From Bdellovibrio sp. (GTDB lineage Bacteria; Bdellovibrionota; Bdellovibrionia; Bdellovibrionales; Bdellovibrionaceae), in contig JAGIAF010000004.1 of the NCBI GenBank assembly GCA_017745015.1, forward strand, positions 1 to 32,509: a DNA stretch of 32,509 nt, written 5' to 3'. This document shows, piece by piece, positions 26,117 through 30,892 of the stretch. A program made the position numbers and the translations under genes. The notes beneath the pieces are model-generated. The model made no database searches, was not told the DNA's origin, and saw only the letters and a list, made by a program, of their open reading frames with translations. The number at the start of each line of letters is the position of its first letter. Positions within the stretch are counted from its first letter, which is position 1.

Positions 26117-26446
26117 ATGAAAATTACGCACAATAAAGTTGGTCAAAATTTGAACCTAACTGATGCTGGTAAATCCGACAAAGCTACGAACATTGCGAAT
26201 AAATCTGCGAAAGATGTTGCAGGCACAAAAGCTGATTTGCTTTCTTCGTCATTGGGCGATTCTTCAAAAGTTGAATTGTCTCCAAAAGCTCAAGAAGCAA
26301 AACGCATCAAGGAACTTGCGATGGCAGCTCCTGATGTTGATGAAGCGAAAGTTGCTAAGTTCCGCGACATGATCGACAAAGGAACTTACAAAGTTGACGC
26401 AAAATCTATCGCCGACAAAATGGTCGACGAGCATTTAGAATTCTAA
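26117..26446 (+). CDS. flgM: Anti-sigma28 factor FlgM
   Basis: SSKVELSPKAQEAKRIKELAMAAPDVDEAKVAKFRDMIDKGTYKVDAKSIADKMVDEHLEF. Confidence 0.92.
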   Translation: MKITHNKVGQNLNLTDAGKSDKATNIANKSAKDVAGTKADLLSSSLGDSSKVELSPKAQEAKRIKELAMAAPDVDEAKVAKFRDMIDKGTYKVDAKSIADKMVDEHLEF

Positions 26447-26527: not shown

Positions 26528-26553
26528 ACTGCTAACCAAGGATGATTAGCAGT
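26528..26553 (+). promoter_or_regulatory. Candidate CsrA-binding hairpin upstream of flgN
   Basis: ACTGCTAA-ccaaGGAtga-TTAGCAGT; loop contains CAAGGATG. Confidence 0.55.
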
Positions 26554-26620
26554 AATTCCAAAAAACCTACTGAAGAAAAAGGTGGCCTGTCCGCCGAAGC
26601 TTCAGCGAAGGAGGAAAAAG

Positions 26621-27145
26621 ATGGATGTAGCTGTAGCAGAAAGAGCGTTTCAAAAGCTCGAAGCCAATCTTGAAGAACTCACTAAAATTTATCGCAACCT
26701 TCTTGAGGTTGTTCGTAAAGAAAAAGAAATCCTGATCCGCGCAGATCGTGAAGCATTGGATGAAAACAATGCGATCAAAGAAGAGTTGCTCTACAAACTC
26801 AGAGCACAAGATTCTTTGCGTTCTCGTTATGCGATGGATCTTGCGACGATCGTTGGTGCTGATGTTGAAAATCCACGTTTGTTGGAGCTGGCTCAGAAAT
26901 TGGCTGCTCTTCCAACGGCGGCGGACAGACTTCGCACTCAACACGCGGCATTGGATATCTTGATCAAACGAATCACTGATATCAACAAAGACAACGAAGA
27001 GTACACGAAGTCGGCACTTAAAACTTTGAATGGTGCCTTGGATGACGTGAAGGAAGCTCTTTCTGGTAAGAAAACTTACGAGAAAAAAGGCGGCTACAAA
27101 TCTGGCCCACAAGTTTCCGGCAACTTCGTTAGTAAAGAAGCATAA
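26621..27145 (+). CDS. flgN: FlgN-type flagellar chaperone
   Basis: Helical protein MDVAVAERAFQKLEANLEELTKIYRNLLEVVRKEKEILIRADREALDENNAIKEELL between flgM and flgK; SD aaggagg. Confidence 0.85.
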   Translation: MDVAVAERAFQKLEANLEELTKIYRNLLEVVRKEKEILIRADREALDENNAIKEELLYKLRAQDSLRSRYAMDLATIVGADVENPRLLELAQKLAALPTAADRLRTQHAALDILIKRITDINKDNEEYTKSALKTLNGALDDVKEALSGKKTYEKKGGYKSGPQVSGNFVSKEA

Positions 27146-27196
27146 GCAAACTGGCTTACACTCCGACTCCGTCGGAGTAAACCGAACCACCCCGCG

Positions 27197-27215
27197 GCTC
27201 ACTAGGATGGTGAGC
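27197..27215 (+). promoter_or_regulatory. Candidate CsrA-binding hairpin directly upstream of the flgK Shine-Dalgarno
   Basis: GCTCAC-taGGAtg-GTGAGC followed by tttta-GGAG-acaga-ATG. Confidence 0.55.
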
Positions 27216-27229
27216 TTTTAGGAGACAGA

Positions 27230-28636
27230 ATGTCGAAGATTTCGGCAATGATGGACACAGGCAAAAGATCTCTGATGAATTCTCAGACATCTTTGCAAAC
27301 TGTTGGCCACAATATCGCCAATAAATCTACTGAAGGGTACTCTCGTCAGAGAGTAGAACTTCTGTCGAACACTCCTATTGGTGAAGGTGGCTTGCAAATC
27401 GGTATGGGTGCCCGTGCCGGTGTTGTGACTCGCGTGAACAATCCTTGGCTGGAAAAACAAATCCAAAAAGAAGGAATGAGCATGGGTTACGAGGATTCTC
27501 GTGCCGATGCCATGGGCCGCGTAGAGCAAATCTATAATGAACAAAATAATAAGGGCTTGAACCAATACGTGACGGATTTCTTCAACGGTTTCCGTGAGCT
27601 TTCTAACAACCCAGAAAGTTTGGCGTCTCGTACTATGGTGCGTGAAGCAGCCGTAGGTGTGGTTAAAGACTTCTCTCGTGTGACGACTCAATTGAGAGGC
27701 GTTCAAGAAGACCTTGATGGTCAAATCAAGACGACGGTTGATGAAGTGAATCAGATCACTAAAGAGATCGCATCTTTAAATGAAAAAATTCAAACGGTTG
27801 AAGTTCAAAAAGTTCCAGCTAATGACGAGCGTGACCGTCGTGATCTTTTGCTTAAAAAATTGGGCGAAAAGATCGACATCAGTTGGGCTGAAGGTAAAGA
27901 CGGACTAGTAACAGTTACAGCGGGGCGCACAGCGATCTTGGTTTCTGGTACCGGCTCGTCGGAATTGAAAGCGCAACAAACGGATACTCGCGATCGTATG
28001 GAAGTCTTCTTCGTAGGAACAGGTACGCCAGCGAATATTACCGAGCAAATTACGGGTGGTCGTATTGGTGGTGCTTTGGATGTTCGTGACCATGTGATTG
28101 AAGATCTTTTGGGTCATGTTGATAAGCTTGCTTACACTCTTGCGACTGAAGTGAATAAAGCCCATATCGAAGGTTTCGATAAAACGGGTAAGAACGGCGT
28201 TTTGTTCTTCGAAATGCCGCCAGAAGAAAAAGGCGCTGCTTCGAATATGGCGTTGAATAAAACAATCTTCAACGACGTATCTCGTATCGCTGCGGCCTCT
28301 AGACCGGATGCTCCGGGTGACAATACTGTGGCGAACGTTATCTCCTCTTTACAATATAGACAGGTGATGGACGACGGTACCGCAACGATGGACGACTACT
28401 ACAATACTCAAGTAGGTCAGGTCGGTGCGATGGCGCAAAGAGCAGTAAAGGCTCAAGAGTCGCAAAAGAACGTAATTAATCAGTTAACGAACATCCGCGA
28501 AAGTATCAGTGGCGTAAGTTTGGATGAAGAGACGACGAAAATGATCGAATTCCAAAAAACTTACGATGCGTCAGCTCGTTTGATCAAAACAGCCGACGAG
28601 ATGTTCGATACGGTTTTGAATTTGAAACGCCTCTAG
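27230..28636 (+). CDS. flgK: Flagellar hook-associated protein 1 FlgK
   Basis: SLQTVGHNIANKSTEGYSRQRVELLSNTP; C-terminal ETTKMIEFQKTYDASARLIKTADEMFDTVLNL. Confidence 0.96.
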   Translation: MSKISAMMDTGKRSLMNSQTSLQTVGHNIANKSTEGYSRQRVELLSNTPIGEGGLQIGMGARAGVVTRVNNPWLEKQIQKEGMSMGYEDSRADAMGRVEQIYNEQNNKGLNQYVTDFFNGFRELSNNPESLASRTMVREAAVGVVKDFSRVTTQLRGVQEDLDGQIKTTVDEVNQITKEIASLNEKIQTVEVQKVPANDERDRRDLLLKKLGEKIDISWAEGKDGLVTVTAGRTAILVSGTGSSELKAQQTDTRDRMEVFFVGTGTPANITEQITGGRIGGALDVRDHVIEDLLGHVDKLAYTLATEVNKAHIEGFDKTGKNGVLFFEMPPEEKGAASNMALNKTIFNDVSRIAAASRPDAPGDNTVANVISSLQYRQVMDDGTATMDDYYNTQVGQVGAMAQRAVKAQESQKNVINQLTNIRESISGVSLDEETTKMIEFQKTYDASARLIKTADEMFDTVLNLKRL

Positions 28637-28656: not shown

Positions 28657-29739
28657 GTGAGAATCGCAGATAAAATGGCCTTCAATCAGGTAAATCAGAA
28701 TCTGGGCAAGAACCGCTCAGACATGTCTGATTTGCAGAATCAGGCGGCGACTCAAAAACGTATCAACAAACCTTCCGATGATCCTTTGGCATCGGCGCGT
28801 GTTCTTGCGGCTCGTACTGAAGAGCACGGAAACGCTCAATTTATTAAAAACATCAATACAGCGAAATCATTCCTGGAGTTCTCAGACCAATCTTTGGGTG
28901 AACTTTCAGATATCTTGGTTCGCGCAAAAGAACTTGCGATCAGTCAATCCAATGATGCCAGCGGGAACTCTGAAACTCGTATGGTGACAGCGGCAGAGGT
29001 TGAGCAGATCTACAATCAGGCTGTTCAAATCGGTAACCGCAAGTTGGGTGAACGCTATGTGTTCGCCGGTTTCAAAACGCAAACGGCTCCTTTCGATCAC
29101 AGTGGTGAATACTTCGGTGATGACGGGGATATGAAAGTTCAGACTCAGAAGGATTCTTTCGTGGCGATGAATATCGCCGGAAACAAAGTCTTCTTGGGTC
29201 GTGGCTTGGATGGCGATGGTATCGTTCGTCCTAACTACGACACGCCAACGAATGTTGAGTCTTTGAAGCAGTTCCAGGGCGATGAGATCCAGCGCCAGCA
29301 GCAGAATCGGGACGTGGAGCAGAATTTCCTGCCGACACGTGGTCCCGCGTCAGAGCGTCGTCAAGGTGGCGCGGATAAAAGAGATCCGGTCACGGGTGGT
29401 GCGGGTGTTAATCTTTTCTCGACGCTGAGAGGCTTAGAAGTCGCTCTGCGCGCCAATGACAAAGAAGCCGTACAAGAAACTTTGGACACACTCGATCAGG
29501 CGATTTCCCAAGTAGTTTTAGCCCGTTCCGAGGTTGGGTCCAGAATTATGGCTGTGAATAACACGTCTGATTCTCTCCAAAAAGCGATCGTTGATAACAA
29601 AACGACGGCTTCGCAATTGGAAGATGCGGATGCATTTCAGGTCATTTCAGATATCAATAAGACCGATTCCACTCTAAAAGCGACGCTCGAAACGTCGGGC
29701 AAGCTTATTCAGCCAAGCCTTCTTGACTTTCTAAGATAA
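28657..29739 (+). CDS. flgL: Flagellar hook-associated protein 3 FlgL (GTG start)
   Basis: MRIADKMAFNQVNQNLGKNRSDMSDLQNQAATQKRINKPSDDPLASARVL; follows flgK. Confidence 0.95.
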   Translation: MRIADKMAFNQVNQNLGKNRSDMSDLQNQAATQKRINKPSDDPLASARVLAARTEEHGNAQFIKNINTAKSFLEFSDQSLGELSDILVRAKELAISQSNDASGNSETRMVTAAEVEQIYNQAVQIGNRKLGERYVFAGFKTQTAPFDHSGEYFGDDGDMKVQTQKDSFVAMNIAGNKVFLGRGLDGDGIVRPNYDTPTNVESLKQFQGDEIQRQQQNRDVEQNFLPTRGPASERRQGGADKRDPVTGGAGVNLFSTLRGLEVALRANDKEAVQETLDTLDQAISQVVLARSEVGSRIMAVNNTSDSLQKAIVDNKTTASQLEDADAFQVISDINKTDSTLKATLETSGKLIQPSLLDFLR

Positions 29740-29799: not shown

Positions 29800-30027
29800 A
29801 TGCTGGTTCTCACACGGAAGTTGGGTGAAAGCATCGCTATCGATGATCATATTAAGATCAGAGTAGTTCAAATTAAGGGAAAACAGGTTCGTCTAGGAAT
29901 CGAAGCCCCTAAAGATACTAAGATTCACCGCGAAGAAGTATACGTAGCCATTCAAGAACAAAACGTTCAATCGGCTGACGTTTCGGCTGACAAGACTCGT
30001 TCCGTTGCTAAGCTATTAAAGCCTTAA
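29800..30027 (+). CDS. csrA: Carbon storage regulator CsrA
   Basis: MLVLTRKLGESIAIDDHIKIRVVQIKGKQVRLGIEAPKDTKIHREEVY. Confidence 0.98.
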   Translation: MLVLTRKLGESIAIDDHIKIRVVQIKGKQVRLGIEAPKDTKIHREEVYVAIQEQNVQSADVSADKTRSVAKLLKP

Positions 30028-30364: not shown

Positions 30365-30892
30365 ATGATCATTTCAACATCGAGATTCGGCCAAGTTGAG
30401 CTGAAGCAAGAAGATGTTCTGACTTTTCCAGAAGGCCTTTTGGGCTTTGCGGATTTGAGAAAGTTCGTTCTTCTCGATGACCCATCTGATGAGATCTTCG
30501 CATGGTTGCAAAGCTGTGAAGCCGCGCAAATCGCGTTCCCTGTTCTTGAGCCAGAATTATTTTCTGCGACTTACAAAGCGAACCTGACTAAAGGTGACAT
30601 GGAAGCTTTGAAACTGACTTCTCAAGACAAAGCTCGTTACTTCTCTATCGTGACTATTCCAGATGATCCGACGCAAATGACTGCGAACTTGAAAGCTCCG
30701 ATTGTTATTAACGTTGCGGAGAAAACCGCTCGTCAGTGCGTTTTGCAAGACAACAACTTGGCAATTCGCGAACCGATCTTCACCAAGCTTCAACAACGTG
30801 TTGTGCAAAACCCAGCAGTGGCGATCAAAAATCAATCCACTGGTATCGACGTTGCGACGAAGTTGCACGTTGTCCGTGACGCTGAACTGTAA
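30365..30892 (+). CDS. fliW: Flagellar assembly factor FliW
   Basis: STSRFGQVELKQEDVLTFPEGLLGFADLRKFVLLDD; IPDDPTQMTANLKAPIVINVAEKTARQCVLQD; adjacent to csrA. Confidence 0.96.
   Translation: MIISTSRFGQVELKQEDVLTFPEGLLGFADLRKFVLLDDPSDEIFAWLQSCEAAQIAFPVLEPELFSATYKANLTKGDMEALKLTSQDKARYFSIVTIPDDPTQMTANLKAPIVINVAEKTARQCVLQDNNLAIREPIFTKLQQRVVQNPAVAIKNQSTGIDVATKLHVVRDAEL

Follow-up and report, generated by a model that had tools for sequence, protein, structure and literature searches.

A conserved GGA-loop hairpin before flgK is a candidate CsrA operator in the Bdellovibrionales

The flgK leader in the window (the whole 32,509-nt stretch of Bdellovibrio sp. DNA analyzed here, part of a draft genome of 3.5 Mb) quite likely carries a CsrA operator, and translational control of flgK by CsrA and FliW appears to be the best reading of the hairpin found there. 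As the loop of this hairpin matches a CsrA site while its stem changes completely among relatives, CsrA control of FlgK, in addition to that of flagellin, is suggested. The hairpin, the identity of its loop, the covariation of its stem, its spacing from the Shine-Dalgarno (SD) sequence, its gene neighbourhood and a like hairpin on flagellin leaders are observed, and the candidate site, predicted as it is from sequence, can be seen as a well-supported new place in a known circuit. The gene order at the locus is flgM-flgN-flgK-flgL-csrA-fliW (by Pfam, with flgL named by position), csrA and fliW thus lying downstream of flgN and flgK in one cluster, as an earlier note on this DNA had claimed; none of the Rfam families matched at its gathering score within the window. 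The features referred to below are:

26117-26446, + strand: flgM, anti-sigma-28 factor, the upstream gene of the cluster (Pfam FlgM)
26528-26553, + strand: flgN-leader hairpin ACTGCTAA-CCAAGGATGA-TTAGCAGT, GGA at 26540-26542 (sequence, shuffles, fold)
26590-26614, + strand: REP-like palindrome TCCGCCGAAGCTTCAGCGAAGGAGG between the flgN hairpin and flgN, supplying the AGGAGG now acting as SD (sequence, relatives)
26621-27145, + strand: flgN, export chaperone for FlgK/FlgL, ATG at 26621 (Pfam FlgN)
27197-27215, + strand: predicted flgK operator hairpin GCTCAC-TAGGATG-GTGAGC, loop GGA at 27205-27207 (sequence, relatives)
27221-27223, + strand: GGA within the flgK SD AGGAG, putative second CsrA-dimer half-site (16 nt from the loop GGA)
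27230-28636, + strand: flgK, hook-filament junction protein, predicted target (Pfam FlgK)
28657-29739, + strand: flgL, flagellin-like protein, named by position, its own leader without an operator (Pfam)
29800-30027, + strand: csrA, 75 aa, with L4, R6, R44, E46, N55 and a C-terminal extension (Pfam CsrA, alignment)
30365-30892, + strand: fliW, protein antagonist of CsrA (Pfam PF02623, 3e-38)

Both hairpins described in the earlier note, the one before flgK and the one before flgN, were found exactly where it had placed them, and the distance of about 16 nt that it gave between the flgK loop GGA and the SD GGA proved to be 16 nt. The flgK loop is an AGGAU pentaloop with a U-G closing pair on an 8-bp stem (27196-27216), the hairpin standing out against dinucleotide shuffles at p=0.01, and a covariance-model scan of the whole 3.5 Mb genome gave just two strong matches, this hairpin (itself part of the set used to build the model) and one other. 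The other strong match, which is the best of the genome (GTGCTCCCAGGATGGGAGCAC, G000:C251:2884-2904, L156), lies between the 3′ ends of converging ORFs. For the flgN loop CCAAGGATGA, a match to the core of the SELEX consensus RUACARGGAUGU had been noted as well; it holds for the CARGGAUG core rather than the full consensus. The flgK loop is not of this hexaloop type, being mostly an AGGAX pentaloop among relatives, and in the window it reads TAGGATG, without the A before N. This consensus is an in vitro optimum, and natural sites need not match it fully. Between flgN and the predicted operator, a perfect palindrome, ACTCCGAC-TCC-GTCGGAGT, is also seen (27161-27179), the sequence of which is not common to relatives.

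In a first set of about 70 flgM-flgN-flgK loci from the genus, the family and the order (oriented by FlgK), the best GGA-loop hairpin beat dinucleotide shuffles at p<=0.05 in 32 of 71 flgK leaders, and 25 of 40 were significant at 0.05 in a held-out set of 40 further genomes. Under a stricter criterion (GGA in a loop of 5 or 6 nt, a stem of at least 5 pairs, the letters flanking GGA left free), such a hairpin was present in 54 of 110 flgK leaders across the order, and 53 of these 54 had loops starting with A, i.e., AGGAX or ANGGAX, a form recognized in solved structures of CsrA-family proteins with RNA. The A(N)GGAX hairpin was thereby found in 48% of flgK leaders vs. 1.1% of shuffled leaders and 2.0% of other windows from the same loci; when strong short hairpins with any loop were considered instead, GGA was held in 41/64 from flgK leaders and 28/255 from control windows. 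The motif is, admittedly, short, and GGA is common near SDs, which is what might be said for a chance match; an enrichment of more than 20-fold over both controls, the held-out confirmation and the covariation described below, however, make such a coincidence scarcely credible, the order-wide survey contradicting it, and, judging by these sequence comparisons, the flgK hairpin is no accident.

By the same stricter criterion, 31 of the 52 genera and 8 of the 10 families have the hairpin, the other 21 genera being without it, and in the order as a whole flgK leaders show loops of both types (with and without N). Outside the order, 28 flgK leaders from the rest of the phylum were readable, and the hairpin was found in none. 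It is also absent from a large subclade within the genus of the window, Bdellovibrio bacteriovorus strain kdesi included, where tandem GGA is seen at the SD; the predicted operator is lost there. Most members of this subclade (L010-L022, L150) have gatgAGGATAGGATG at the start codon. A scan of the order with the covariance model placed flgK as the most frequent gene downstream, with flgG occurring twice and a flgE-like gene once, and many matches had no clear gene start downstream. One small genome without flgK showed four equal-scoring matches (G111 C38, C85, C141, C218; AGCAGGCCAGGACGGCCTGCC in L160), which could represent either a repeat or a CsrA sponge.

The earlier note had proposed covariation of the stems around an invariant loop GGA as a check, and for flgK the outcome was strongly positive, with the loops (53/54) and the stems agreeing. 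The 31 gapless hairpins compared had been picked for an AGGA loop and a good stem, and both AGGA and the level of pairing are therefore partly a product of selection; within this set, 93.1% of paired cells were complementary vs. 47.7% after shuffling and 35–48% with slid partners. All 8 stem pairs vary on both sides, most stem columns hold 0.02–0.3 bits (0.3–0.5 for the two 5′-side columns beside the loop), and the stem is thus kept as a structure and not as a sequence. The position after GGA, which was not selected for, is T or C in 28 of the 31, and the next one is G in 27 of the 31. A structural or processing element unrelated to CsrA (a terminator, an RNase site or an SD-presenting hairpin) would find some encouragement in the window copy, where four T's follow a strong stem and the separate palindrome (27161-27179) comes shortly before it. 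No T run is seen in relatives, however, neither a terminator nor an RNase site would be expected to keep an A(N)GGAX loop through a complete change of the stem, and the SD lies outside the hairpin in the window and in most relatives, all of which renders such an element very improbable. Two more specific candidates were rejected: an intrinsic terminator, TTTT being peculiar to the window, and a leader peptide (ATG-GTG-AGC-TTT-TAG) inside the window hairpin, the ATG of which is gone in relatives with AGGACG.

A CsrA operator that represses flgK would also be in keeping with the layout, as the loop GGA has a median position of -27 relative to the flgK ATG, usually 20–35 nt before the start codon, and a second GGA is found at or near the SD in 43 of 51 relatives, 10–45 nt (median 17 nt) from the loop GGA. 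CsrA might, nevertheless, bind the flgK hairpin without repressing, either stabilizing or activating the mRNA or being soaked up by it in the manner of a sponge; CsrA can activate as well. Titration of CsrA by the flaA mRNA in Campylobacter jejuni (PMC4894983) provides a precedent for the sponge, but a loop mostly 20–35 nt before the start with a second GGA in the SD is a repressing layout of the kind seen at glgC (PMC7652899), and a non-repressing role seems unlikely. CsrA dimers bridge sites 10–63 nt apart, with a reported optimum of >18 nt (PMC7652899), and the 16 nt of the window fall within this range, slightly under the optimum, which, together with the median in relatives, upholds the suggestion in the earlier note of a spacing compatible with dimer bridging.

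The assignment of the flgN hairpin as an operator is weaker than that for flgK. It has an AAGGAU hexaloop with a C-G closing pair and a C-A mismatch beneath, is individually significant (p=0.01) and reaches -10 kcal/mol (z -3.0) when folded by itself; it does lie upstream of flgN, as had been noted, but its GGA is 81 nt from the flgN ATG and not at the ribosome binding site. At the same place, it recurs only in two close relatives, L006 and L008, the stems differing among L002, L006 and L008, and in these three loci a REP-like palindrome now sits between the hairpin and the start codon. This palindrome (TCCGCCGAAGCTTCAGCGAAGG) is recurrent in flgN leaders in both orientations (window 26590-26614; L006, L008, L015, L019, L025). 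In most of the remaining genus members, a CAAGGATGATG motif is seen at the flgN SD instead, and other relatives have similar loops right at the flgN SD (cttcaCAAGGATGAtgaag and others). Overall, 11 of 64 flgN leaders have an A(N)GGAX hairpin by the stricter criterion and 12 of 64 reach p<=0.05, making the outcome of the covariation check at flgN moderately positive. The flgN hairpin alone could, compatibly with the preferred reading for flgK, be a chance or decaying feature rather than a working operator, a possibility of real weight, if short of an even one, given a place common only to L006 and L008 and the intervening 81 nt with a REP-like insertion bringing its own SD; the AAGGAU loop (p=0.01) and the similar loops at the flgN SD of other relatives speak against it. 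Probably, the flgN hairpin is one more CsrA-type site, albeit a more labile one, the pattern in flgN leaders being read as operator turnover, which a decaying relic would fit too.

Flagellin leaders are the classic target, and a CsrA-type GGA hairpin was present in 34 of 42 of them, the genome's own (L210) included, which means that the analysis applied to flgK recovers the expected target. The L210 leader has tcgagtttcAAGGATCgaaactcgg 37 nt before the ATG; across flagellin leaders (L188-L217 and L210, G000:C233), the ATG is preceded at about 37 nt by a strong hairpin with GGA in its loop, the SD holds several GGA, and second flagellin genes have additional GGA hairpins. Per-gene counts from the same clusters let flgK (30/58) stand out, with flgN (12/57) being intermediate, flgG (5/46) slightly raised and flgI (0/45), fliW (1/53), flgM (3/52), flgF (3/43) and flgL (4/63) at background; fliD leaders reached p<=0.05 in 5 of 28, their starts being uncertain. 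A(N)GGAX hairpins upstream of flgG occur in scattered species (L168 in G005, L180 in G067, L224 in G018), and in the flgE leaders L268-L296 a small hairpin with a varying stem, gacATGGAGgtc (stems caacATGGAGgttg, agaacAGGAGgttct), holds the SD in its loop. The csrA leader showed a hairpin in 25 of 47 cases, which was not counted as an operator because it sits in the conserved codons ending flgL and its stem barely varies. In other families (L233, L130, L231), a ctttgacTAGGATgttgaag hairpin lies about 20 nt before csrA, within the last flgL codons (SLTRMLKE), for which autoregulation or mere protein conservation are both possible. The earlier note had proposed flgN/flgK as a node different from flagellin: flgK does come out as a predicted node, but flagellin is a predicted target too, and flgK would therefore be an added node and not a replacement.

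An alignment to 1t3o and 5dmb shows that the CsrA of the window (75 aa, with a C-terminal extension) keeps the RNA-binding residues L4, R6, R44 and E46 as well as the FliW-contact residue N55. Among the best matches of this CsrA is the one in complex with FliW in 5dmb, and FliW resembles the solved FliW-CsrA partner (5dmb_A, E 8e-21; PF02623, 3e-38). Order-wide, all 103 good genomes (103 of 103) encode CsrA and 95 encode FliW; several of the small genomes lacking flgK retain CsrA but have no FliW, and CsrA therefore has other work too. As to CsrA binding, repression and FliW relief at flgK, we infer that a CsrA dimer would dock on the A(N)GGAX loop and that its second site would reach the SD GGA some 16 nt further on, so that ribosomes would be kept off. 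FliW, the gene of which lies downstream, would relieve this block when not occupied by cytoplasmic flagellin, since, going by the known circuit of B. subtilis and C. jejuni, free FliW should block CsrA and cytoplasmic flagellin should occupy FliW. A build-up of flagellin would turn FlgK translation down, successful export would turn it up, and the synthesis of FlgK and that of flagellin would be held back in step, according to how export through the flagellum is proceeding. Because FliW would already be free before any flagellin is made, the circuit would work as a homeostatic throttle and not as a strict time gate.

In the window, the flgN loop is of the ANGGAX hexaloop kind, with flagellin loops being similar, and the flgK loop is of the form without N. 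RsmE structures show ANGGAX hexaloops bound at ~16 nM and forms without N at 1.5–3.5 uM (PMC4005645), so the flgK pentaloop, being of the weaker type, would count against an operator there; the loop preferences of this CsrA may, however, differ from those of RsmE. One hypothesis is that loop type sets a graded response between flagellin/flgN and flgK. Extended further, and quite tentatively, CsrA-FliW of the Bdellovibrionales might restrain exported axial proteins in general rather than flagellin alone, with operators on flagellins and flgK, in some clades on flgN, flgG or flgE, and perhaps on csrA itself, where loop type (hexaloop-like at flagellin/flgN, mostly a pentaloop at flgK) would grade affinity and hence the order of shut-off. 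From evolution alone, the flgK hairpin predicts that a whole order of relatives of the predator Bdellovibrio shares a conserved post-transcriptional control point at the hook-filament junction. The CsrA-FliW circuit, centred on flagellin, would be widened to a structural protein that has to be in place before the filament, and the presence of the flgK hairpin in some close relatives but not in others would offer a clean natural experiment.

A literature search (with subscription journals sparsely covered) turned up no paper describing a CsrA site for flgK, “flgK mRNA” and “flgK transcript” included, and what it returned on Bdellovibrio and CsrA were passing mentions, with no CsrA target or flgK report among them. 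The C. jejuni CsrA regulon resembles the present case in going beyond flagellin, with several further flagellar mRNAs being bound (flaG, flgI, flaB, flgM), but its flgK mRNA was not enriched with CsrA (0.7x, 1.0x; PMC4894983), which counts against the flgK-operator reading. The Geobacter flgJMNKL-csrA-fliW operon has a matching gene order and is co-transcribed, whereas flgK is not mentioned there as a CsrA target (PMC11934962). The hairpins of RsmE-RsmZ and hcnA share an A(N)GGAX loop on a stem as the recognition element (PMC4005645), the candidate site here being in an mRNA leader of Bdellovibrionales. The CsrA-FliW-Hag circuit of B. subtilis (PMC7652899, PMC6529632) is alike in having csrA and fliW in a late flagellar cluster with flgM-flgN-flgK-flgL, and the GGA hairpins of Bdellovibrionales flagellin leaders add to this likeness; the target described there, however, is hag, whereas the order-wide predicted operator here is on flgK. 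The E. coli glgC operator, where one CsrA dimer bridges the hairpin GGA and the SD GGA, is similar in its upstream GGA-loop hairpin, SD GGA and a spacing within bridging range (PMC7652899), while at flgK the target would be a flagellar junction protein, the loop is usually AGGAX and the expected antagonist would be FliW instead of CsrB/C.
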